Assembly (NCBI GenBank): GCA_038727705.1
Contig: JAVYVJ010000002.1
Coordinates: 114,012 to 178,011 of the forward strand
DNA: 64,000 nt
Direction of reading: 5' to 3'
Source of the DNA: Zestosphaera sp.
GTDB taxonomy: Archaea > Thermoproteota > Thermoprotei_A > Sulfolobales > NBVN01
The notes below the pieces were generated by a model. It was not told the origin of the DNA, did not search any database, and saw only the letters and a program-made list of their open reading frames with translations. Each line of letters starts with the position of its first letter. Position 1 is the first letter of the stretch. The translations under genes and the position numbers were made by a program. Shown here in pieces: positions 4,141-45,201 of the stretch.

Positions 4141-5982
4141 ATGCCTCCACCATGTTCTCCTGGTAGGATACTGCACGTTGATCTATCAACTGAAAGGACC
4201 TGGGAGGAGCCTGTCCCTGAGGATTGGTACAAACTCTACGTCGGTGGCGAGGGCTTCGGAGCGAAGTATCTCTACGACAATCTGAGACCCCGCGTTGATC
4301 CGATGTCCGGTGAGAACAAGCTTCTGTTCATAACGGGTCCCCTAACCGATACTGGCGCCCCAACATGCGGCAGGACCGTGGTCATGTTTAAGTCCCCCCT
4401 AACCGGCACCATATTTGCATCAAACGTCGGCGGTTACTTAGCACCGCAGATCAAGAGGAGCGGCTACGACATGGTCGTGGTCCACGGCATGGCTGGGAGG
4501 CCCACGTACATATACATACACGACGACAGGGTCGAGTTCCTCGACGCCAGGGACTTCATGGGACGCTCGCCCAGGGAGGTCCAGAAGGAGATAAGGAAGC
4601 GTCACAACAACAGAGACATTCAGGTGGCGGCTATAGGAGTTGCTGGGGAGAAGCTGGTCAAGTTCGCGGCGATTATGGTGGACGGTCATAGGGCTGCGGG
4701 TCGAGGCGGCGGTGGGGCTGTGATGGGCTCCAAAAACTTGAAGGCGCTTGCGGTGTACGGAACACGCTTCAAAACCGGGCTGGCTGACCAACCTAGCTTC
4801 AGGGAGGCCGTCAGGAAGGCGTTGAGTGAGTTGCTTGAGGAACCCTTCGTCAGGGACGAGCTGAGGAAGTACGGGACACCTTCATTCTTCGACGCCATGA
4901 ACGCCACAGCACTGGTGCCGTTCTACAACTGGAGGAGGAGTAAGATGCCTGAATTCAACGACCATCTAGGTTACAAACCTTATCACGAGAGGCTCTCAGT
5001 GAGGCCCTATGCATGCTTCAACTGCCCTATAGCGTGCGGAAGGCACACAGTAATCCCTGAGGGGGTGTTCAAGGGTGTTGAGAGCGGCGGCCCCGAATAC
5101 GAGTCGCTCGCGGCGTTCGGAGCTAAGACGGGAGTTAAGGACCTCTACTACGTTACAGCCGCAAACCACCTCGCCAACGAGCTCGGCCTAGATGTAATAT
5201 CCACCGGCCAGGTGATAGCCACAGCGATGGAGTGGTATGAGGCGGGGGTAATAGACAAGGCTAAGGCTGACGGGCTTGAGCTCACTTTCGGCAACGGCGA
5301 GGCCGTGGTGGAGCTAGTCAGAAGGATTGGAACGAGGAAGGGGGATTTCGCAACCCTGCTCGGCGAGGGCTCCCTTAAAGCCGCCCAGATCCTAGGTAAG
5401 GACGCGATGTACTACGTCATGCACGTGAAGGGTCTCGAGATGGCTGCCGACGAGGTCAGGACGAGTAAGGGTGAGGCCTGGTCCCACATGGTCTCCCCGA
5501 GAGGGGCTGACCACCTGAGGCCTTGGGCATCGATAGTGGACGCTTTCGGGTACCTGAGCGAGGAGTTCGGCATCACCGAGAGGCCCGACCCCTTCAAGGA
5601 GGAGTTCAAGTCCTGGGTCAAGCCGCTGGAGGAGTACTCGATGACCACCAACCTGCTCGGCGTATGCCTCTTCACAGTCATAACGCTCGCGGTCAGGGCC
5701 GAGACGTGGACCAAGCTCCTCAACCACGCCGCAGGCTACGATTTCACGATGAAAGACCTCCTTAAGGCGAGTGAGAGGGTCATAAACCTTGAGAGACTCT
5801 TCAACGTTAGGGAGGGCTTCAGCAGGAAGGACGACTACCTGCCTGAGAGGTTCAGCAGGGAGCCAGGCGATGGCGCCGTGGTGGATCAGGACAAACTCCT
5901 CGACATAATCTACGAGATAAAGGGATGGGACAGGAACGGGGTGCCGACTAAAGAGAAGCTGAAAGAGTTAGGCCTAGAATGA
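4141..5982 (+). CDS. aldehyde:ferredoxin oxidoreductase (tungsten type), copy 1
   Basis: 613 residues, the usual AOR length. AORs use a tungsten bis-pterin and one [4Fe-4S] cluster to oxidise aldehydes to carboxylic acids with ferredoxin as acceptor, in the cytoplasm. Visible are the N-terminal GRILHVDLST block, GVAGEKLVKFA, GGAVMGSKNLKA, GPEYESLAAFG, the cluster motif CFNCPIAC (Cys292, 295, 299) and the fourth cluster Cys at about 509 in NLLGVC; GLDVISTG is the first pterin-binding motif. The second pterin motif has Asn where copies 2 and 3 have Asp. Its stop overlaps the start of the radical SAM gene by four bases, so the two are co-translated. The substrate cannot be read from sequence. 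Confidence 0.93.
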   Translation: MPPPCSPGRILHVDLSTERTWEEPVPEDWYKLYVGGEGFGAKYLYDNLRPRVDPMSGENKLLFITGPLTDTGAPTCGRTVVMFKSPLTGTIFASNVGGYLAPQIKRSGYDMVVVHGMAGRPTYIYIHDDRVEFLDARDFMGRSPREVQKEIRKRHNNRDIQVAAIGVAGEKLVKFAAIMVDGHRAAGRGGGGAVMGSKNLKALAVYGTRFKTGLADQPSFREAVRKALSELLEEPFVRDELRKYGTPSFFDAMNATALVPFYNWRRSKMPEFNDHLGYKPYHERLSVRPYACFNCPIACGRHTVIPEGVFKGVESGGPEYESLAAFGAKTGVKDLYYVTAANHLANELGLDVISTGQVIATAMEWYEAGVIDKAKADGLELTFGNGEAVVELVRRIGTRKGDFATLLGEGSLKAAQILGKDAMYYVMHVKGLEMAADEVRTSKGEAWSHMVSPRGADHLRPWASIVDAFGYLSEEFGITERPDPFKEEFKSWVKPLEEYSMTTNLLGVCLFTVITLAVRAETWTKLLNHAAGYDFTMKDLLKASERVINLERLFNVREGFSRKDDYLPERFSREPGDGAVVDQDKLLDIIYEIKGWDRNGVPTKEKLKELGLE

Positions 5983-7040
5983 GGACGGTCGACTGGATCA
6001 TAGCCCTGAGGGGGGATTCCCACCCTAGAGAGCTGATGATAGAGATCACTACAGCTTGCAACTACATCTGTCCGCACTGTTTCAGGTTTTCCATCAAGGA
6101 CTTCAGAACCTGTTACATGGACTTGAGGCTATACACCCACGTGCTCGACTCAGCCATCAATGCAGGTATTGGGAGAGTCGTGTTCTCAGGGTGGGGTGAA
6201 CCCACAGTGCACCCCAACATCCTTGAGATGATAGACGAGGCAAAGGGTAGGGGGTTATCCGTAGCGATTAACACCAACGGCTCCAGGCTTGACGAGCTGT
6301 CTGAGGAGTTAGTGAGGCTGGGTGTGGATGAGGTGTTCGTAAGCATCAACCAATCTGAGTTGAATCGAGACGCACTACAGGGCGTTAAGCAACTTAGGAT
6401 GCAGAGAATCCTCAGGAGGGCTGAGAAGCCTGTGATCAAGGCCATCTACACGGTCACGAAATCCAGCGTCAAGGGAGTGAAGGAGGCGATCAAGCACGCT
6501 AGGGAGCTGGGCGTGAGGGAGCTACACTTCAACTACTACATACCGTACCCCGGAGGACCGGGGGAGCTCGACTGCCTCAACGACGGTGAGTGCAGGGAGG
6601 AATTCAACAAGATGCTGAGCGACGCCGCTCCAAGGATCTTAGGGGCAGGGGTTCGCTTCACACACGCAGGGACGACCCCGAAGTTCGCTAGGAGCTGCCC
6701 TTTCGCAAGCAACAGAGCCCTCTTCGTGAGGTGTGACGGATGGGTAGCACCCTGCCTCTACTACTCGAGGTCATGGAGGACTAGAGTCCTCGGAGTCACC
6801 AGAGAATTGAGGGAGGTGTTGCTCGGCAGGCTCGGGGAGGTAAGCCTTCTGAATATCTGGAGGGGTAGGTATTCGGAGATGCTCTTCAGACTTCACTTCA
6901 ACCACCTCCCCTCATGCTTGGAGTGTCCCTTCATGGAGGGGTGTGGGTTCACGTCAACTAATGAAGCCGACTGCTGGGGGAACACGCCCAGCTGCGCACA
7001 CTGTCCATACATGCACAAGCTCTCATACTGCCCGCTCTGA
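5979..7040 (+). CDS. radical SAM protein, probable tungsten-cofactor oxidoreductase maturase
   Basis: 353 residues. The radical SAM cluster motif is CNYICPHC (Cys27, 31, 34), followed by FSGWGEPTVHPN (the glycine-rich SAM-binding motif). The C-terminal third is cysteine-rich (RCDGWVAPC, CLECPFMEGC, CAHCPY), as in SPASM-type auxiliary cluster domains. ATGA overlap with the AOR gene upstream and the known family of AOR-adjacent radical SAM maturases point to a role in maturing the AOR or its cofactor; that is inference from context. No further gene follows on this strand. Start ATG at 5979 is fixed by the overlap. Confidence 0.85.
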   Translation: MRTVDWIIALRGDSHPRELMIEITTACNYICPHCFRFSIKDFRTCYMDLRLYTHVLDSAINAGIGRVVFSGWGEPTVHPNILEMIDEAKGRGLSVAINTNGSRLDELSEELVRLGVDEVFVSINQSELNRDALQGVKQLRMQRILRRAEKPVIKAIYTVTKSSVKGVKEAIKHARELGVRELHFNYYIPYPGGPGELDCLNDGECREEFNKMLSDAAPRILGAGVRFTHAGTTPKFARSCPFASNRALFVRCDGWVAPCLYYSRSWRTRVLGVTRELREVLLGRLGEVSLLNIWRGRYSEMLFRLHFNHLPSCLECPFMEGCGFTSTNEADCWGNTPSCAHCPYMHKLSYCPL

Positions 7041-13692: not shown

Positions 13693-14015
13693 CTAGGCTG
13701 AGGGGAAACAAGGTACAGGATAGCATTAGAAGCTACGCCAGGAACGTCGCTCCCGGGCTATTCTACTTACTGGACTTGTACTGCCTTAAACTCACGGGGA
13801 GGGACTGCGTGACACTCCTGCTGGACGAGCCCGAGACCCTCAGGGAAATCATTGCGGGGATATACGGTTCATCGCCAGCGGTTAGAGTGATTGCAAGGAT
13901 GTTGCTCCATCCCTTGAAACTGGAGATAAATGTTGACAAGTCTGTGGATGAGTTGGTTGAGCTGTTCATGAACAACCCCGTGGAACTGCGTAGAGTGCTG
14001 TATGAGCATGCATGA
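13689..14015 (+). CDS. small conserved-looking protein co-translated with the KaiC-like ATPase
   Basis: 108 residues, no membrane segment, mostly predicted helix, with TGRDCVTLLLDEPETL and IYGSSPAVRVIARMLLHPL as the most conserved-looking parts. It starts with ATGA overlapping the stop of the KaiC-like gene, so it is very likely a partner or regulator of that ATPase. Not recognised; the paralogous ATPase at 36 kb has no such neighbour. Confidence 0.65.
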   Translation: MTRLRGNKVQDSIRSYARNVAPGLFYLLDLYCLKLTGRDCVTLLLDEPETLREIIAGIYGSSPAVRVIARMLLHPLKLEINVDKSVDELVELFMNNPVELRRVLYEHA

Positions 14016-14152
14016 TCACGTAAGCGGTCCACGCATGCATTCATCCACCAACACCTTCATCACTATTCAAGCATGCTTCATAGTAGGGGGTTGTGCTGCA
14101 AGCCACGGCCTGTCAAAAGAGCGGGTCTAGGTTGTGATGAGCGTGTTGACGC

Positions 14153-15205
14153 TTATCCCTCGAAGACTGCTTTGAGGACTCTTAGTATGTTTTCATGCGC
14201 TATCTTCTTAACGTCCCCCTCTGAAAACCCTCTCTCCATGAGTCTAGCGTAGAGTGCCGGCAACTTATCTATGCTTTCAAAGCCTTCAGGTGCTGGCAGT
14301 CCGAACAGTCCAAGAAAGTCCGTGCCTACCGCGAGCATGTGGACTCCGTAGGTTTCACGGACGTATGTGAAGTGCTCCACGACATCATCTAGCGTTGCTT
14401 TAGGCTTAGCCGATGTGAGGGGTCCTATAGCTGAGATGCCGATCACCCCTCCGTTTCTGTGAAGGGCTTCCAGCACGTCATCACCGACATTCCTCGACTT
14501 ATCCACGAGCCTCCTGACGTTCGCGTGACTCACGATCACGGGCTTCCTGCTCACTGTGAGAACGTCTAAGGATGTCCTCCCACTGGCGTGGGCTAAGTCC
14601 ACTACGATCCCGAGCTTATTGGCTGTCCTGACTAACTCCTCGCCCTCGCCCGTCAGCCCTACGTCCTTCCTGACCGCACACCCGCATCCGTACTTGTTCT
14701 GATAGTTCCAAGTCAACCCCAAACTCCTGAGTCCAAGCTTCTTAAGGAGGACTAGGTCGTAGGGATCGTCAATCGGCTCCGCCCCCTCTAGATGTAGGAG
14801 GAAACACAGGCCCTCACCCCGCAGGCATCCCTCAACGTCAGAGAGCTTCTCCACTATCTTAACGCCGTAGACCTCGGCCATCCTGTGGTAGATTGAGAAG
14901 TGCTCTAGGAGGAGAGCTTGAGGTGCCCTGTACTTCATCGCCGGAAGCCACCTACCGTAGAGCTTCTCGAGGGCGCTGGACTCCTCCGGGCTGAAGCTCT
15001 CAGTGCAGAGGAACATCGCGGCGAAGACGACGCGGACGTTCGCCCTCCCGTACTTAGGTATGTCCGCTGTACGGCCCGCTACGTCCTCCCCGAAGTCTCC
15101 GAGCGGTGAGTCACCGCCGTGGTGGAGGTAGTGAGCCGACACGTCTTCGTGAAGATCCACGGTAGGAGGTAGGGAAGTAAGTGACGTATGCCACATCCCA
15201 CTCAA
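14153..15205 (-). CDS. membrane dipeptidase family (M19) peptidase
   Basis: 350 residues, zinc-dependent M19 dipeptidase. Motifs: VDLHEDV near the N-terminus (the DxH/ND zinc site), LHLEGAEPI with the bridging Glu, LGLRSLGLTWNYQNKYG, VDLAHASG and VIVSHANVRRL (the two later zinc histidines), and AVGTDFLG. No signal peptide, so cytoplasmic. The likely job is cleavage of dipeptides during peptide catabolism. The 137 bases between it and the KaiC-like operon hold nothing I can identify. Confidence 0.88.
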   Translation of the reverse strand: MSGMWHTSLTSLPPTVDLHEDVSAHYLHHGGDSPLGDFGEDVAGRTADIPKYGRANVRVVFAAMFLCTESFSPEESSALEKLYGRWLPAMKYRAPQALLLEHFSIYHRMAEVYGVKIVEKLSDVEGCLRGEGLCFLLHLEGAEPIDDPYDLVLLKKLGLRSLGLTWNYQNKYGCGCAVRKDVGLTGEGEELVRTANKLGIVVDLAHASGRTSLDVLTVSRKPVIVSHANVRRLVDKSRNVGDDVLEALHRNGGVIGISAIGPLTSAKPKATLDDVVEHFTYVRETYGVHMLAVGTDFLGLFGLPAPEGFESIDKLPALYARLMERGFSEGDVKKIAHENILRVLKAVFEG

Positions 15206-16724: not shown

Positions 16725-16856
16725 GGATTACGCCCCGCAAACGTGCTCGTTATGAGGTGTTGGTTTAACGTGTTAGTTGTAACTACGTCTTACTGTTGGT
16801 TGTTCTTATTTAACTTGTTTATGTTAATTCTTGCTATGAACTTGCGGAGATAAAGC

Positions 16857-16865
16857 TTATAAATT
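16857..16865 (+). promoter_or_regulatory. TATA box of the ABC importer/AOR operon
   Basis: TTATAAATT, 18-26 bases ahead of the ATG at 16883, which puts the transcript start at or next to the start codon: a leaderless message for a six-gene operon. Confidence 0.6.
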
Positions 16866-16882
16866 TACATATATATGTTTAA

Positions 16883-17950
16883 ATGAGTGTGTGTTTGGGG
16901 GTGTGTTGTGTGGGTTTAACAGGTGTTTCGGGCGTTAAGTTCCTCGCCCTGGGTTTGGTTGTTGGTTTTGGTTTGGGATGGTTCATGAAGCCTGTTGGGA
17001 CTCAATCTGTTGTTGGGCATGTGAGGTTCACTCTTGACTGGGCTTATCAAGGCCCTCAGGCGCCGTTCCTAGTGGCTCTGTATAAGGGGTTCTTCGCTGA
17101 GGAGGGGCTTTCCGTCACGATTGACAGGGGTTACGGCTCGGCTAAGGTGATCAGCGATGTTGCGGCCGGGATGTTCGACGCGGGGTTCGGCGACATCAAC
17201 TCCCTCATAGAGTTCAAGTCGAAGAACCCTGACGCTAAGGTTAAGCTGGTGGCGGTCATCCACGTCAGGTCACCTCTGAGCGTCGTGACGCTGGCGAGGA
17301 CTGGGATCCAGACGTTGAAGGACCTTGAGGGGAGGAGACTCGGGGCGCCGGCGGGCGATGCTGCGAGGAGGGTCTTCCCAGCGCTCGCCAACGCCGTCGG
17401 CGTGGACCTGAATAAGGTTGAGTGGGTCACGATGGACGTCCCCCTTAGGGAACCCATGCTCGCCAGGGGGGATGTGGACGCCGTGACGGGGTTCTACTAT
17501 ACGGTGGTGCTCAACCTGCTGGGGTTAGAGATCCCTGAAGGCGAGGTAAGGGTCTTCAAGTACGGCGACCACCTGCCGCTGCTGGGGAACGGCATAGTCG
17601 TTAACGAGGACTTCCTGAGGAGTAACCCGGAGGCCGTGAGGAGGTTCCTGAAGGCCGTCGTGAGGGGCATTAAGTACGCGATACAGAACCCCGACGACGC
17701 GGTGGAGATACTAACGATGAGGGACCCAACCCTCAACAAGACCGTTGAGAAGGCGAGGCTGATTATGGCCCTAGAGATCATCAACGTGAAGGGGGTGACG
17801 GACAAGCACGGGCTGGGCTACGTCGACCAAGCAACCATTGAGGGATGCATAGACGTGGTTGTACGCACCTTCGGACTCGGCAGGAAGCCCTCGCTAGGCG
17901 AGATCGTCGACCTCAGCTACCTCCCGCCGCTTGAATACGGAACTCCATGA
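16883..17950 (+). CDS. ABC transporter substrate-binding protein, NMT1/SsuA-like
   Basis: 355 residues. One N-terminal hydrophobic segment (about 17-35, FLALGLVVGFGLGWFM) anchors it outside the membrane. The mature part is an NMT1/THI5-like periplasmic binding fold: LDWAYQGPQAPFLVALYKGFF, EEGLSVTIDRGYGSAKV, DAGFGDINSLIEF and LEGRRLGAPAGDAARRVFP. Families of this fold bind thiamine precursors, alkanesulfonates, nitrate or small aromatic acids; the ligand here is unknown. First gene of the operon that continues through the transporter, a polyferredoxin, an AOR and a MoaD-like protein, so the ligand is plausibly related to the AOR substrate. Confidence 0.85.
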   Translation: MSVCLGVCCVGLTGVSGVKFLALGLVVGFGLGWFMKPVGTQSVVGHVRFTLDWAYQGPQAPFLVALYKGFFAEEGLSVTIDRGYGSAKVISDVAAGMFDAGFGDINSLIEFKSKNPDAKVKLVAVIHVRSPLSVVTLARTGIQTLKDLEGRRLGAPAGDAARRVFPALANAVGVDLNKVEWVTMDVPLREPMLARGDVDAVTGFYYTVVLNLLGLEIPEGEVRVFKYGDHLPLLGNGIVVNEDFLRSNPEAVRRFLKAVVRGIKYAIQNPDDAVEILTMRDPTLNKTVEKARLIMALEIINVKGVTDKHGLGYVDQATIEGCIDVVVRTFGLGRKPSLGEIVDLSYLPPLEYGTP

Positions 17951-17957
17951 CAATGTG

Positions 17958-18722
17958 ATGCTGATGAAGGACGCGCTCCTGAGACTTCATCACGTCACAG
18001 TCAAGTACGGCAACAACGGCGGCGAGCTGGTGGCGGTGAGGAACGTCAGTCTAGACGTAACGCCCGGCGAGGTCGTCGCCATCGTGGGGAGGAGTGGATG
18101 CGGCAAGACAACCCTACTCAAGACCATGGCCGGACTCGTCAAACCTGTTGAGGGGGAGGTGATCTTCAAGGGACGCAGGGTCGTCAGCCCACCGAAAGGT
18201 GTGGGAGTCCTCTTCCAGACCCCCCTACTCCTGCCCTGGAGGAACGTGTTGAGGAACGTCCTACTGCCGATAGAGATAGCCGGCGAGGACATCGGTAAGT
18301 ACGTCGGCAGGGCGGCCGAACTCCTTGATAGAGTCGGTCTGAAGGGGTTTGAAGGCAGCTACCCGTGGGAGCTCTCAGGGGGGATGCAGCAGAGGGCGGC
18401 ACTCTGCCGGGCACTCATCCATAAACCCTCCCTACTCCTGCTGGACGAGCCCTTCAGCGCGCTCGACGCGATCACTAGGGAGGAGATGTGGATCCTAACC
18501 CAGGAGATCATCTCATACGAGGGGTACACCGCAGTGCTGGTGACGCACGACGTCAGGGAGGCCGTCCTACTGTCCGACAGGGTTGTCGTGGTGGGCGGCA
18601 GGCCGGGCACAATCAAGGCCGAGGTCAGCGTGCCCTTTACTAGACCCAGGGGGCTGGAGCTCCAGTACAGCGAAGCCTTCAACGAGCTTGTGGCGAAAGT
18701 GAGGAGCCTGCTGGGTGATTGA
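17958..18722 (+). CDS. ABC transporter ATP-binding protein (SsuB/TauB type)
   Basis: About 254 residues from the ATG at 17958; a TTG at 17931 would add nine residues but would overlap the binding-protein gene, and ATG at 17964 is also possible. Walker A GRSGCGKTTLL, Q-loop FQTPLLLPW, signature LSGGMQQRAALCRAL, Walker B LLLLDEPFSALD and switch VTHDVREAV are all intact. It powers the importer formed with the genes on either side. Four-base overlap with the permease gene. Confidence 0.92.
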   Translation: MLMKDALLRLHHVTVKYGNNGGELVAVRNVSLDVTPGEVVAIVGRSGCGKTTLLKTMAGLVKPVEGEVIFKGRRVVSPPKGVGVLFQTPLLLPWRNVLRNVLLPIEIAGEDIGKYVGRAAELLDRVGLKGFEGSYPWELSGGMQQRAALCRALIHKPSLLLLDEPFSALDAITREEMWILTQEIISYEGYTAVLVTHDVREAVLLSDRVVVVGGRPGTIKAEVSVPFTRPRGLELQYSEAFNELVAKVRSLLGD

Positions 18723-19489
18723 GTGTGGGCATCAGATACAGGATAAGGGTCCCGGGCTCGCTCCTAGCCATGACGACTGTGTGTGCGGTTTGGGAGCTGA
18801 GCGTACGCCTTCTGAGCGTCCCTCAATACGTGTTGCCAGCTCCCTCCGTAATCCTGCTGAGCGCGTCGAAGTACTCTTGGTACCTAACCCACAACCTGCT
18901 CGACACCCTCACCCACGCCGTGCTAGGACTCGCGCTCGCTGCCGCCTTCTCACTCGCCCTCAGCCTTCCCCTAGCCTACAGCGGCTCCCTCAGGAATGCT
19001 GTGTACCCGCTCATAGCAGGATTCAACGCCATACCCAGGGCGGCGCTAGTGCCCCTCCTAGCACTGTGGTTTGGTCTCGGCTCAGTGCCGAAGGTGCTGA
19101 CGGCCTTCCTGATAGCGTTCTTCCCAATCCTCGTACCCACCCTCACGGCGATGGTGACGGTGGAGAGGGAGCTCCTGGAGATGCTCCTCTCCTTCGGGGC
19201 CACTAAGGGTCAGATACTGACTAAGGTCGCCGTACCGAGGGCGATGCCGTACTTCCTGAGCTCGCTCCACATGGGCCTGACCAGCGCCTTCGTGGGCACA
19301 GTGATCGCGGAGATGGTGGCTTCAGATAAGGGCCTCGGATACGTAATACTGTCCTCGACATCAAGGCTTGACACCCCGTTAGCTTTTTCATGTTTGATGC
19401 TCCTAGCTCTCGTGACCTTCACCGCCTCAAAGGCGTTGAGCCTGACTGAGAGGAGGGTTGTGGTGTGGGCCTACAGGGCAAGCGCCTGA
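18719..19489 (+). CDS. ABC transporter permease (SsuC/TauC type)
   Basis: 256 residues, about six transmembrane helices, with the EAA-like coupling loop ELLEMLLSFGATKGQILTKVAVPRAMPYF near residues 143-172. TTG start at 18719 overlaps the ATPase stop, indicating translational coupling. It forms the membrane channel of the importer. Its last eight codons overlap the ferredoxin gene, tying the transporter firmly to the redox genes downstream. Confidence 0.9.
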   Translation: MSVGIRYRIRVPGSLLAMTTVCAVWELSVRLLSVPQYVLPAPSVILLSASKYSWYLTHNLLDTLTHAVLGLALAAAFSLALSLPLAYSGSLRNAVYPLIAGFNAIPRAALVPLLALWFGLGSVPKVLTAFLIAFFPILVPTLTAMVTVERELLEMLLSFGATKGQILTKVAVPRAMPYFLSSLHMGLTSAFVGTVIAEMVASDKGLGYVILSSTSRLDTPLAFSCLMLLALVTFTASKALSLTERRVVVWAYRASA

Positions 19490-19866
19490 CAGTCAGGCCG
19501 GAGCTCTGCACCGGCTGCTCTATATGCGAGCTAATCTGCAGCTTCACGAAGTTCAGGGTATTCAACCCAAGGAAGTCCATGGTGAGAATACATTACAACC
19601 ATAAGCTCGGCCGCCTCGAGAAAGCCGTCACGTGCAGCCAGTGCGGCGCCTGCATGGCCGCATGTCCATCAGGAGCGATACGCAGAGGGAATGGCGTTGT
19701 GATCATAGACCACAGCAGGTGTGGCAGATGCCTGACATGCGTCAACACATGCCCAGAAGGCCTAATCCAGGTGGTCGACGGAACGCCGCACAAGTGTGAC
19801 CTGTGCGGCGGTATCCCTCAATGCGTGAGGTACTGTGTGAGGGGTGCGCTCAATGTCGTCTCTTAA
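19465..19866 (+). CDS. polyferredoxin-like 4Fe-4S subunit associated with AOR
   Basis: 133 residues with many cysteines in ferredoxin spacing: CTGCSICELIC near residue 15, CSQCGACMAACP near 57, CGRCLTCVNTCP near 87 and CDLCGGIPQCVRYC near 109, enough for up to four [4Fe-4S] clusters. This matches the small electron-transfer subunits found beside some AORs. It would take electrons from the AOR encoded next. GTG start at 19465 lies inside the permease gene; its stop is past the ATG of the AOR gene. Confidence 0.88.
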   Translation: MGLQGKRLTVRPELCTGCSICELICSFTKFRVFNPRKSMVRIHYNHKLGRLEKAVTCSQCGACMAACPSGAIRRGNGVVIIDHSRCGRCLTCVNTCPEGLIQVVDGTPHKCDLCGGIPQCVRYCVRGALNVVS

Positions 19867-21796
19867 GGGATATGCTGGCAGGATACTCTACGTAGACTTA
19901 ACGAGGGGTAAGTACTGGACGGAAGAGTTGCCCGAATCCGTAGTCAAGGCGTACGTAGGGGGGAACGGGCTCGCCGCCCACCTACTCTGGAACCTCATCA
20001 GCGAGGAGGTTGACCCTCTGAGCCCTGAGAACCCCTTAATAGTGGCGACAGGTCCCGCCACCGGCGCGCTCTCACCATCGTCCGGGAGATTCGCGGTCGT
20101 CACGAAGTCCCCGCTCACCGGGGCTTGGGGGGAGTCACATGCAGGCGGCTTCCTCGGCCCCCAGATCAAGTACGCTGGCTACGACTTCTTAGTGATCACC
20201 GGAAGATCGCCTAAACCGGTAACGCTGGTGGTGGATGACGGGAGTGTAGTCCTGCGGGACTCCCACGACCTCTGGGGCTTGAGCACGGCGGACACCACCG
20301 ACGAGCTCAGGGGGGTGGTCGGTAGCGATTACCACGTCATGTGCATAGGTCCTGCGGGGGAGAAGCTAGTTAAGTTCGCGTCAGTGATGGTCGACTACTA
20401 CAGGGCATTCGGCAGGACCGGCGTGGGGGCAGTGATGGGCTCCAAGAGGCTGAAGGCGGTGGCGGTCAGGGGAGGCAAGGACGTCGTGGTCCACGACCCG
20501 GACAGATATATTGAGGTTCTTGAGGACTTCCTGTGGAGGAACACTGAAGGGCCTTGGGCGTTCCCAGCGCAGGCGAGTCTGGGCCGGTTCGGCACTCCCT
20601 GCCTAGTGACGGCCATGAATGCCATCGGCAGATTGCCTACTAAGAATCACTGGACGGGCTACTGGGAGCGTGCTGAGGAGATCAGCGGTGAGGAACTCCT
20701 GAAGTACAGGGTCTCCAGAGGTTCATGCTTTTCGTGCATGATAATGTGCAAGCACATAACGAGGGTTGACGATGGGGTCTACGCAGGAGCGATGTCAGGC
20801 GGGCCTGAGTACGAGAGCGTTGCCGCGCTGGGTTCGAACCTCCTAATACACGACATCAAGGCGGTAATATACATGAACACTCTCTGCAATCTCTACGGTC
20901 TGGACACCATATCAACGGGTAAGGCGATCTCGTTCCTGTTCGAGTGCTACGAGAAGGGATTAGTTGAGAAGAAGAATGTAGACGGCCTGGAGCCCGTGTG
21001 GGGGAATGCGGAGACCGCCGTCGAACTCATTAAGGCGATAGCTGAGAGAAGAGGCATCGGCGACTTGCTGGCCGAAGGGGTTAGGAAGGCCTCGGAGGTG
21101 CTTGGACATCGCACTCGACACTACGCTCTTCACGTTAAGGGTCTTGAAGTGTCCGCCCAGGATCCGAGGGCCCACAAGTCCGTGGGTTGCACTTGGGCCA
21201 TATCGGTCAGGGGCGCTGACCACCTGCGCTCGCTGACAACGGTTGACGAGCTAGGCTACAGGGACATAGCTACTGAGAGGTTTGGCCCGGTAATGACTGA
21301 CGCTATATGCGACAGGCTGACCGAGAAGTATAAAGGGGTCGTTGTCAAGGACCAGGAAGACCTCTTTGCACTCGTGGACTCGATAATAATGTGTAAGTAC
21401 GGCACTATGTGGCCCCCCATGTACTACTTCGACTTCATAGCTAAGCTACTGCCGCCTCTGACCGGCATCAAGGAATTCAGCGACGTTAAGTACTTGAGGC
21501 TGACCGCTGAGAGGATCGCCAACCTTAAGAGGTGCTTCAACCTAAGGGAGGGGGTGGGGAGGGAGTCCGAAACTCTCCCTCAACGCTTCACCGAAGAGCC
21601 GATGCCCACAGGACCCTCAAAAGGACACACATGCAATCTAGAACCCATGCTAAGGGAGTACTACAGTCAGAGGGGTTGGGACTACGAGTCAGGGTTGCCG
21701 TACGAGGAGACTCTGAAGAGGCTGGAGTTGAATCAAGCGGCCGACGCCTTGAAGAGGAGGTATAGGTTGCCGAGGTGGGAGCGTGGTAGTGGTTAG
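19853..21796 (+). CDS. aldehyde:ferredoxin oxidoreductase (tungsten type), copy 2
   Basis: 647 residues from the ATG at 19853, chosen because GAGGGGTG precedes it; a GTG at 19844 is possible. Motifs: GYAGRILYVDLT, GPAGEKLVKFAS, GVGAVMGSKRLKAVAV, cluster Cys CFSCMIMC (292, 295, 299), GPEYESVAALG, GLDTISTGKAI, and DSIIMCKYG with the fourth cluster Cys. All cofactor motifs look intact. It sits between its own polyferredoxin and a MoaD-like protein, in an operon headed by an organic-solute ABC importer. Oxidation of an imported or derived aldehyde is the likely role; the substrate is not known. Confidence 0.93.
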   Translation: MSSLKGYAGRILYVDLTRGKYWTEELPESVVKAYVGGNGLAAHLLWNLISEEVDPLSPENPLIVATGPATGALSPSSGRFAVVTKSPLTGAWGESHAGGFLGPQIKYAGYDFLVITGRSPKPVTLVVDDGSVVLRDSHDLWGLSTADTTDELRGVVGSDYHVMCIGPAGEKLVKFASVMVDYYRAFGRTGVGAVMGSKRLKAVAVRGGKDVVVHDPDRYIEVLEDFLWRNTEGPWAFPAQASLGRFGTPCLVTAMNAIGRLPTKNHWTGYWERAEEISGEELLKYRVSRGSCFSCMIMCKHITRVDDGVYAGAMSGGPEYESVAALGSNLLIHDIKAVIYMNTLCNLYGLDTISTGKAISFLFECYEKGLVEKKNVDGLEPVWGNAETAVELIKAIAERRGIGDLLAEGVRKASEVLGHRTRHYALHVKGLEVSAQDPRAHKSVGCTWAISVRGADHLRSLTTVDELGYRDIATERFGPVMTDAICDRLTEKYKGVVVKDQEDLFALVDSIIMCKYGTMWPPMYYFDFIAKLLPPLTGIKEFSDVKYLRLTAERIANLKRCFNLREGVGRESETLPQRFTEEPMPTGPSKGHTCNLEPMLREYYSQRGWDYESGLPYEETLKRLELNQAADALKRRYRLPRWERGSG

Positions 21797-22022
21797 GCTT
21801 CACGGACTGTTGAGGGAGGAGGCAGGGACCACCGTCCTCAATGTGAGGGGATGCAATCTTGAGGAAGTCCTTCAGAACCTACCCCCTGAAGTGGGAGAGG
21901 TTTTAAGGATGTACGCGAAGCACCTGATAATCCTAGCTGATGGAAGGAGGATCTACGACATGAAAACGATTTTAGATGAAGATGCCACGGTTGACATAAC
22001 CTTGCCAGTGGGGGGTGGGTAG
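21783..22022 (+). CDS. MoaD/ThiS-like ubiquitin-fold protein
   Basis: 79 residues, beta-grasp size, ending in LPVGGG, the C-terminal Gly-Gly that is adenylated and thiocarboxylated in MoaD-type sulfur carriers. MoaD supplies the dithiolene sulfur of molybdopterin/tungstopterin. GTG start overlaps the end of the AOR gene by 14 bases, so it is made with the AOR. AOR-linked MoaD-like genes are a known arrangement; whether it serves general cofactor synthesis or this AOR only cannot be told. Confidence 0.85.
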   Translation: MVVVRLHGLLREEAGTTVLNVRGCNLEEVLQNLPPEVGEVLRMYAKHLIILADGRRIYDMKTILDEDATVDITLPVGGG

Positions 22023-43126: not shown

Positions 43127-43296
43127 ACCACACCCCTAAAATAGACATGCTAAAGAGTTAAATGTGTCTCGAGACTCCTTGCAATGAGGGCAGTACGGCT
43201 TCATTGAGTACACTCGCTTTTTTCAGCGCCCCACCCAAAAGTCTTTAGGAGATCCAGCGAGCCTGTGCTTGAGAAACGTCAAACAATTTGTTGATA

Positions 43297-43304
43297 TTTA
43301 TAAA
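43297..43304 (+). promoter_or_regulatory. TATA box of the third AOR gene
   Basis: TTTATAAA, 34-41 bases ahead of the GTG at 43338; the GGTGA at 43329-43333 serves as a ribosome binding site. Its position excludes the longer upstream reading frame from 43269. Confidence 0.6.
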
Positions 43305-43337
43305 CCTTGTAGTGATTTTCTTTGTGTCGGTGAAATC

Positions 43338-45201
43338 GTGGGTTACGTAGGCAAGGTTCTAATAGTCAACCTAGCTAAGGGTAGGGTATGGTACGAGCCG
43401 ACTCCAGATCAGGAGGTTCTGGAGAGGTTTGTGGGCGGTAAGGGGCTTGGACTGTGGTACCTCCATAGGTTGCTGGGGCCGCACTCAGACGTGTCGCCTT
43501 TCGACCCCCGCAACCCGCTGATATTCATGACGGGGCCGCTCACAGGACTTCCCGTTCCGTGCGGTAACAACACTACCGCCGTCACTATAAATGGTGACAC
43601 GTGGTACACGACTGCTGCGTCGCACACCCACGGATTCTTCGGGCCCTACCTAAAGATGGCCGGCTTCGACGGTCTCGTGCTGCTCGGCGCCTCCAAGGAC
43701 CCAGTTTACATCTGGATTCATGATGGCGAGGTCGAGTTGAGGGACGCCTCCAAGCTCTGGGGCAGAGACACTCACGAGACGGAGGACCTCGTTAAGAGTG
43801 AGTTGGGTTTGGAGCCGGCTAAGGTCAGCGTGGCCGCGATCGGGCCTGCGGGGGAGAACATGTGCACCGGCGCCGGCATCTGGAACGACAAGCACCACTC
43901 CTTCGCTCACTCAGGCGTCGGTGCTGTGATGGGCTCCAAGAAGGTTAAGGCTATCGCGGTTCACGGCAACGGGAAGATACCTGTCAAGGACCCTGAGAGG
44001 TTGAGGGAGGTTGCGAGACTGTGGAGTGAGAATCTCTGGAAGAGCGACGTCGTTAACGCCCTCGCGAGGGGCGGCCTCCCCCGCACCGAGTACGCCTACA
44101 CGAAGCAGAACTACTTGGTCTCCGACAAGAACCTCTCTGACGTGAGCTCGCCGGAGTTCGCTAAGGGGATGTCCAAGTTCAAGTACACTCCGAAGGCCTG
44201 CTTCGCATGCCCTATAGCGTGCTCCTACGAGGTCGAGGTGACTGAAGGACCGTATAAGGGGGTCATCGCAACACCTGCCGGCGGCGGTGAGAACCTGGAG
44301 GGCGTGTCCTCCCTGCTCGGGATCTACGAGCCGGGCGCGATATTCCACTTAATAGAGCTTGCGGACAGGCTGGGGTTCGAGACGAGCACCATAGGCTCCA
44401 CGATAGCCGTCCTCATAGAGGCTTACCTGAAGGGGAGGGTGGGTAAGGAGGAGTTGGGTGGGATCGAGCTTAGGTGGGGTGACCCGAAGTTAGTTGAGGA
44501 ACTGCTGATTAAGGCTGCGAGGAGGGAGGGATTCATAGGTTACCTCCTCTCCTTAGGTCCGAAGAGGGCTGCCGAGGCCGTGGGGGCTGAGGACCTCGCG
44601 GTCCACGTCAAGGGGACCGGGATAAACCTCCACGACTGGCGGTTCACGTGGGCAATACTGCTCGGGCAGTTAATTGGCGGTGGGTACAGCTGGCCCGCCC
44701 CCGGCGTGGACGCGTGGGCGACCGAGCCGGACATAGGCTACCCAACATATCAAGACCCCTTCGACTGGAGGCTGAAGCCTAAGGCGGTTAGGGACACGCA
44801 GCTCAAGAAGAACTGGGTGGATAGTATAGGAATATGCTGGTTCGCTGACTGGGGCGTGCCCGGCTCCCTAGGGTTTGAGGCGGAGGCCGTCGAGGCCGCG
44901 ACGGGGATGAAACTCACTAAGGAGAAAGCACTCGAGGTCGGTGAGAGGGTCGTAAACCTTGAGAGGGTCCTCAACGTGAGGCTGGGTCTGAAGCCCGAGG
45001 ACGACGTGGCCGACGTAGGGCCGAGGTTCCTGGAACCCCCCCGTAGCCGGCCCCGCCAAAGACAAGGACATAAGGAAGCACGTCAGGTGGATGGTTAAGG
45101 AGTACTACAGACTCATGGGCTGGAGCGAGAAGACCGGGATGCCTCACCACGAGACCCTTGAGAGGCTCGGCCTGAAGGAGTTACTGTGCTGTTGCCGCTG
45201 A
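43338..45201 (+). pseudogene. aldehyde:ferredoxin oxidoreductase (tungsten type), copy 3, frameshifted near the C-terminus
   Basis: From GTG at 43338 (GYVGKVLIVNLAKGRVWYE) the frame has all AOR motifs: GPAGENMCTGAG, GVGAVMGSKKVKAIAV, cluster Cys CFACPIAC, the pterin motif region LGFETSTIG and DSIGICWF with the fourth Cys. At a run of seven C (45036-45042) the frame shifts: as given it ends at 45098 with a non-AOR tail, but with six C it continues PPVAGPAKDKDIRKHVRWM to GLKELL and stops at 45201, giving the expected 620 residues. The body is perfectly preserved, so a sequencing slip, slippage during expression or a very recent mutation are all possible. No ferredoxin or maturase gene is adjacent. 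Confidence 0.85.

Follow-up and report, generated by a model that had tools for sequence, protein, structure and literature searches.

The window, by which we mean the whole 64,000-nucleotide stretch of DNA from the heat-loving archaeon Zestosphaera sp. that was analysed, carries six open reading frames on the forward strand at positions 16883-22022. ORF calls and profile searches agree on these genes, and domain searches bear out the families first named for them in the original prediction. The features are as follows:

16856..16864, forward strand: TATA-like box cttataaat, a promoter element some 20 nt before the ATG of the binding-protein gene, as read from the sequence
16883..17950, forward strand: NMT1/SsuA-type solute-binding protein (SBP), PF09084 at 2.4e-41, with an N-terminal membrane anchor, orthologues at 68-74%
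17931..18722, forward strand: ABC-transporter ATPase of the TauB/SsuB type, PF00005, with orthologue starts considered
18719..19489, forward strand: ABC-transporter permease of the TauC/SsuC type, PF00528 (BPD_transp_1) at 2.5e-23, orthologues at 65-77%
19465..19866, forward strand: four-[4Fe-4S] (FeS) protein, an electron-transfer subunit like AorA and the WOR5 small subunit
19844..21796, forward strand: predicted AOR-family tungstopterin oxidoreductase, from PF02730, PF01314, the tree and the residue table
21783..22022, forward strand: MoaD/ThiS-like small protein ending in GGG, from a weak moaD_arch match and orthologues

It had been proposed that every junction in this series overlaps, which holds for four junctions but not for that between the SBP and the ATPase. 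The ATPase and permease genes overlap by 4 nt, the permease and FeS genes by 25 nt, and the AOR and MoaD-like genes by 14 nt. The FeS/AOR overlap is 14 nt if the AOR begins at ATG 19853, the probable start judging from orthologous sequences, and 23 nt if it begins at GTG 19844. The SBP and ATPase genes overlap only if TTG 17931 is taken as the ATPase start. Since the alignments of ATPase orthologues begin at residue 9-17, the start is likely to lie at 17955-17964, and the two genes would then abut. The single TATA box proposed before the unit is indeed present, and given its position the SBP transcript is probably leaderless or nearly so. Most orthologous SBPs are likewise preceded by similar TTATAA-type boxes.

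Many archaea have several AOR-family genes whose substrates are unknown, and the 1.6 Mb genome of the window has about nine. Two further ones lie in the window itself: one at 4141-5982, which overlaps a radical SAM/SPASM gene (5979-7040) by 4 nt, and one at 43269-45180, whose last ~50 codons are in another frame through a frameshift or a sequencing error near 45030.

The FeS protein, encoded beside the AOR, has 16 invariant cysteines, enough for four [4Fe-4S] clusters. It matches the small subunits of AOR complexes (PDB 8c0z_C, 9mqx_E and 6x1o_B, of the Aromatoleum AOR, 9mqx and WOR5, respectively), and it is therefore to be regarded as a subunit of the AOR rather than as a free electron carrier, the role of polyferredoxin in which it had first been cast. 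The MoaD-like protein has no Pfam match and reaches 19.7 bits against the NCBIfam moaD_arch model, whose cut-off is 49.5. Its C-terminal GGG includes a GG end that is conserved among orthologues, and a ThiS-family protein adjoins the AOR of one relative in the AOR clade described below. By these sequence features, it is a putative sulfur carrier for tungstopterin. The tungstopterin cofactor is not made by a MoaD homologue alone. "Self-contained", as the unit had been called, is thus an overstatement, given an FeS protein that is part of the enzyme, a MoaD homologue that does not suffice, and an importer that stands alone in two genomes.

Ten other genomes, nine from the family of the window and one an Ignisphaera MAG, have orthologues of the SBP at 69-75% identity. 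In six of these genomes (loci L044, L045, L046, L047, L049 and L052) the complete series SBP-ATPase-permease-FeS-AOR-MoaD lies on one contig. The MoaD-like gene of G017 (L047 14742-14984) points the opposite way from the other five genes. In G007, the contig stops inside the AOR and leaves the unit partial; in G027, it stops in the FeS gene, and the AOR is on a separate contig. Two genomes, G022 and G025, retain the three importer genes alone, with no remnants of FeS, AOR or MoaD genes found in either, and part of their flank matches G018. The genes flanking the unit are unrelated between genomes, close relatives excepted, and no AOR orthologue of at least 70% identity was found in genomes that lack the importer. 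The maintenance of gene order amid unrelated flanks, together with the restriction of AOR orthologues to genomes with the importer, excludes a chance adjacency. The proposed linkage of importer and AOR thus recurs in other genomes of the order Sulfolobales and supports a coupled uptake-plus-oxidoreductase unit; that all six genes act together as a single functional unit is, in our judgement, nearly certain. The unit was not found in the other four genomes of the genus. An SBP homologue of G041 (L053, about 13844-14484) is broken by several stops and is apparently a decaying copy. No paper in the literature searched, which included few subscription titles, was found to describe AORs linked to such an importer or to place AORs in purine metabolism.

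What, then, is the substrate of the AOR? The protein scores above the cut-offs of both AFOR_N (267 bits) and AFOR_C (414 bits). The cysteines that bind the proximal [4Fe-4S] cluster (CxxCxxxC plus C) are kept as C295, C298, C302 and C517, corresponding to C288, C291, C295 and C494 of PfAOR, and Thr251, Glu324 and His460 correspond to Thr243, Glu313 and His448. At the position of Tyr427 of PfAOR, however, the window AOR has Gln439, so that the second-shell set of AOR sensu stricto (Thr243, Glu313, Tyr427 and His448) is not complete. Tyr427 is listed in a 2025 review among the conserved second-shell residues and is proposed to position the aldehyde (PMC12096430). An IQ-TREE phylogeny of 57 sequences places the window AOR in an 18-member clade (SH-aLRT 98.1/UFBoot 98) separate from the characterised AORs, the deep branches being weakly supported. 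All 18 members of this clade have Gln at the Tyr427 position, as against 1 of 39 other AORs. The subclade of the window AOR is sister to the AORs L122_9366 and L191 (100/100) and does not group with PfAOR, AORAa and CaAOR. Of the clade assignments that a phylogeny was expected to settle, placement outside AOR sensu stricto and FOR is supported, for a tree without GAPOR, WOR4 and WOR5 in which the closest AORs from outside the order were chosen by score alone.

Nucleobase-catabolism genes lie near all 11 clade AORs that are not of the window type, which come from seven genomes. Of 19 AOR loci from beyond the clade, none has such genes nearby (Fisher 2e-8). The markers counted were SsnA, hydantoinase/allantoinase-like, PreA/UacX-like, carbamoyltransferase, PALP lyase and cytosine deaminase genes; they were picked after the first loci had been inspected, some contigs are short (3-7 kb), and the 19 control loci come from the same searches. 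When the count is confined to loci that turned up once the markers had been chosen, it is 4 of 4, from just two genomes, versus 0 of 16 (p = 2e-4). The sister AORs L122_9366 and L191 are each followed by a PreA/UacX-like gene, and the AORs of L125 and L211 have ABC binding proteins of the PnrA/Bmp (nucleoside) type nearby. In the bacterial reductive urate pathway, the components are the urate dehydroxylase XdhD, YgfK or UacX, SsnA, HyuA, YgeW, YgeY and YgeX (PMC12507026). The archaeal AOR clusters have counterparts of several of these, of the SsnA, HyuA and YgeW/UacX types. Their only ORF of sufficient length to encode a large subunit of the XDH type is a fused ABC permease of the nucleoside type, and their gene content suggests that the AOR and its FeS subunit stand where XdhD would be expected.

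These observations bear on two readings in which the enzyme retains aldehyde chemistry. In the first, which is that of the original prediction, the importer takes up an aldehyde or a precursor of one, and the AOR oxidises the aldehyde, passing the electrons to ferredoxin and yielding a carboxylic acid. Characterised AORs all act on aldehydes or acids; to our knowledge, the only other chemistry among characterised homologues is the ring reduction of BamB. The equivalents of Glu313, His448 and Thr243 are kept, and the FeS subunit is like those of AorAB and WOR5. Nevertheless, the clade is distinct from both AOR sensu stricto and FOR, it has lost Tyr427, the clade relatives sit in nucleobase clusters, and the SBP relatives, as discussed below, sit in purine/hydantoin operons. 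We consider this reading unlikely, and the tie of the clade to nucleobase catabolism and the loss of Tyr427 lead us, with moderate confidence, to move the substrate class from aldehydes to nucleobase-type rings. In the second, the unit does belong to nucleobase catabolism, but the AOR oxidises a downstream aldehyde, such as malonate semialdehyde or glyoxylate, and not the ring. This would share the neighbourhood evidence and keep known AOR chemistry. It is nonetheless quite unlikely, as the end product of the reductive urate pathway is pyruvate and no step through an aldehyde is described for it (PMC12507026), the slot left empty in archaea is that of XdhD, and the pocket residue is changed throughout the clade.

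The importer provides an independent view of the ligand. The binding protein has the motif LDWAYQGPQAPF, and DWAYQGPQAPF stands at the place of the ThiY-type DW.PN..H motif, which we take to be the conserved pyrimidine-binding motif of the ThiY/THI5 thiamine-precursor binding proteins. Among solved structures, the protein is nearest to a thiamin-bound SBP, ThiY and Thi5, and one might suppose a ThiY-like importer of thiamine precursors with the AOR beside it incidentally. The replaced motif, the conservation of the linkage in many genomes, the absence of a thiamine gene from the unit, and an Rfam search of the window in which a tRNA was the sole match, with no TPP or other riboswitch, all speak against such an importer, which we consider very improbable. 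The assignment that was to undo the proposed coupling was thus not obtained. The same Rfam result leads us to reject riboswitch control of the unit.

Could the ligand be some other small solute, such as a sulfonate or a methylated amine, used by the AOR or by the pathway of its product? Distant NMT1-type relatives lie beside an MttB-family gene (L098) and a CoA-transferase-like gene (L097), and there are weak matches to SaoX, SsuA and TauA models. Yet the best score of the SBP against the NCBIfam TauA/SsuA/SaoX models is 85.5 bits, with a cut-off of 163.5, it falls below the cut-off of every SBP equivalog model, and relatives of the L097 and L098 kind are outside its subfamily, a 34-member clade with 100/100 support. 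A solute of this sort is therefore improbable. In the annotated bacterial neighbourhoods of the subfamily, genes of purine, hydantoin or related ring catabolism are present in 8 of 14 cases (e.g., 8-oxoguanine deaminase, allantoinase, uraD/uraH and dihydropyrimidinase); 5 of 14 have no such genes, and one, in Deinococcus aquaticus, is urea-related. Control neighbourhoods gave 0 of 2, too few for a rate. One archaeal SBP relative (L096) adjoins an XDH-family Mo subunit. Rhizobium SBPs on a neighbouring branch, just outside the subfamily, carry xanthine riboswitches; none was found near members of the subfamily itself. The structure model of the SBP has a mean pLDDT of 67, and no pocket was therefore read from it. 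Near a subfamily importer of Paracoccus alcaliphilus, an Rfam SECIS_3 match lies inside the formate dehydrogenase gene fdnG (L091 11995-12053).

No ring-opening genes are found in or near the window unit. SsnA has only a 28% match in the genome of the window and none at E<=1e-30 in seven other operon-bearing genomes, while 13 of the 17 remaining family members have it at 48-55% identity, and none of these 13 has the unit (Fisher p = 5e-4, phylogeny ignored). The lack of a good SsnA in eight operon-bearing genomes implies that the unit does more than open an SsnA pathway within one cell. It may replace the known pathway, serve salvage or act as an electron sink; the mutual exclusion may also merely reflect phylogeny. 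The genome of the window has no good PurM match, which would fit a requirement for purine uptake, but most of the other genomes with the operon do have PurM, and purine auxotrophy is accordingly rejected as the common reason for the unit. Most of the 13 SsnA-bearing family members also lack PurM. Compact archaeal SsnA clusters resembling the bacterial reductive urate pathway occur at L151, L153, L155, L157, L160 and L162; these clusters, which come from relatives, comprise two carbamoyltransferases, an amino-acid/carbamate-kinase-like gene, SsnA, a PreA/UacX-like gene and a PALP lyase. On contig C1 of the window's genome, a hydantoinase-like gene lies between two xanthine-dehydrogenase-type gene sets (L166 5506-14715).

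From this gene context, we think it fairly likely that the unit is nucleobase-related. We put at about even the chances of the fuller proposal, in which a nucleobase-type heterocycle is imported and a ferredoxin-linked, tungsten-dependent hydroxylation or dehydroxylation follows. The SBP, permease and ATPase would import an N-heterocycle of nucleobase type, most likely a purine such as xanthine or urate, possibly a pyrimidine or hydantoin. The AOR-family tungstoenzyme would hydroxylate or reductively dehydroxylate the imported compound or its immediate derivative, the four-[4Fe-4S] subunit would conduct electrons from the AOR to ferredoxin, and the MoaD-like protein would help to make tungstopterin. 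That the AOR acts on the ring itself is a suggestion to which we give somewhat less than even weight. Elsewhere, molybdenum enzymes of the xanthine-dehydrogenase type perform this ring chemistry. It is tempting, though more tentative still, to propose that the AOR clade consists of nucleobase (purine) hydroxylases or dehydroxylases replacing the Mo XDH-type enzymes in anaerobic hyperthermophilic archaea, with the lineage of the window adding a dedicated ABC nucleobase importer. Consistent nucleobase neighbourhoods and a changed catalytic residue define a concrete and testable AOR substrate class, and the binding protein offers a simple handle for finding the substrate. Were the ring chemistry true, tungsten enzymology would extend to purine (de)hydroxylation, a new role for the AOR family, and the gap left by XdhD in a purine-degradation pathway of archaea would be closed.

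Among known systems, the aorABCDE operon of Aromatoleum aromaticum encodes an FeS protein (AorA), a W subunit (AorB), an FAD protein (AorC) and MoaD-like proteins (AorD/E) (PMC6365974). The window unit resembles it in joining an FeS small subunit, a W large subunit and a MoaD-like gene in one operon, and differs in having no AorC, in its ABC importer, in its AOR clade and in the change of Tyr427 to Gln. With the AOR (1AOR), FOR (1B25) and WOR5 (6X1O/6X6U) of Pyrococcus furiosus, the enzyme shares its fold family, its cluster ligands and the active-site Glu and His, and WOR5 likewise has an FeS small subunit. Unlike the P. furiosus AOR and FOR, it belongs to a separate clade (in a tree without WOR5), is linked to an importer and has clade relatives accompanied by nucleobase catabolism. 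As in the bacterial reductive urate cluster (PMC12507026), the archaeal AOR relatives lie beside SsnA, HyuA, UacX-like, carbamoyltransferase and PALP genes; in contrast to it, the archaeal clusters have AOR plus FeS instead of a gene of XdhD size, and the window unit itself has no ring-opening genes. Finally, ABC importers of the NMT1/THI5-like and TauA types are found under xanthine (NMT1) riboswitches (PMC7373994; RF03054). The window SBP belongs to another subfamily, on a branch neighbouring theirs, and has no riboswitch, but it shares with these importers a protein superfamily and a link to oxidised purines.
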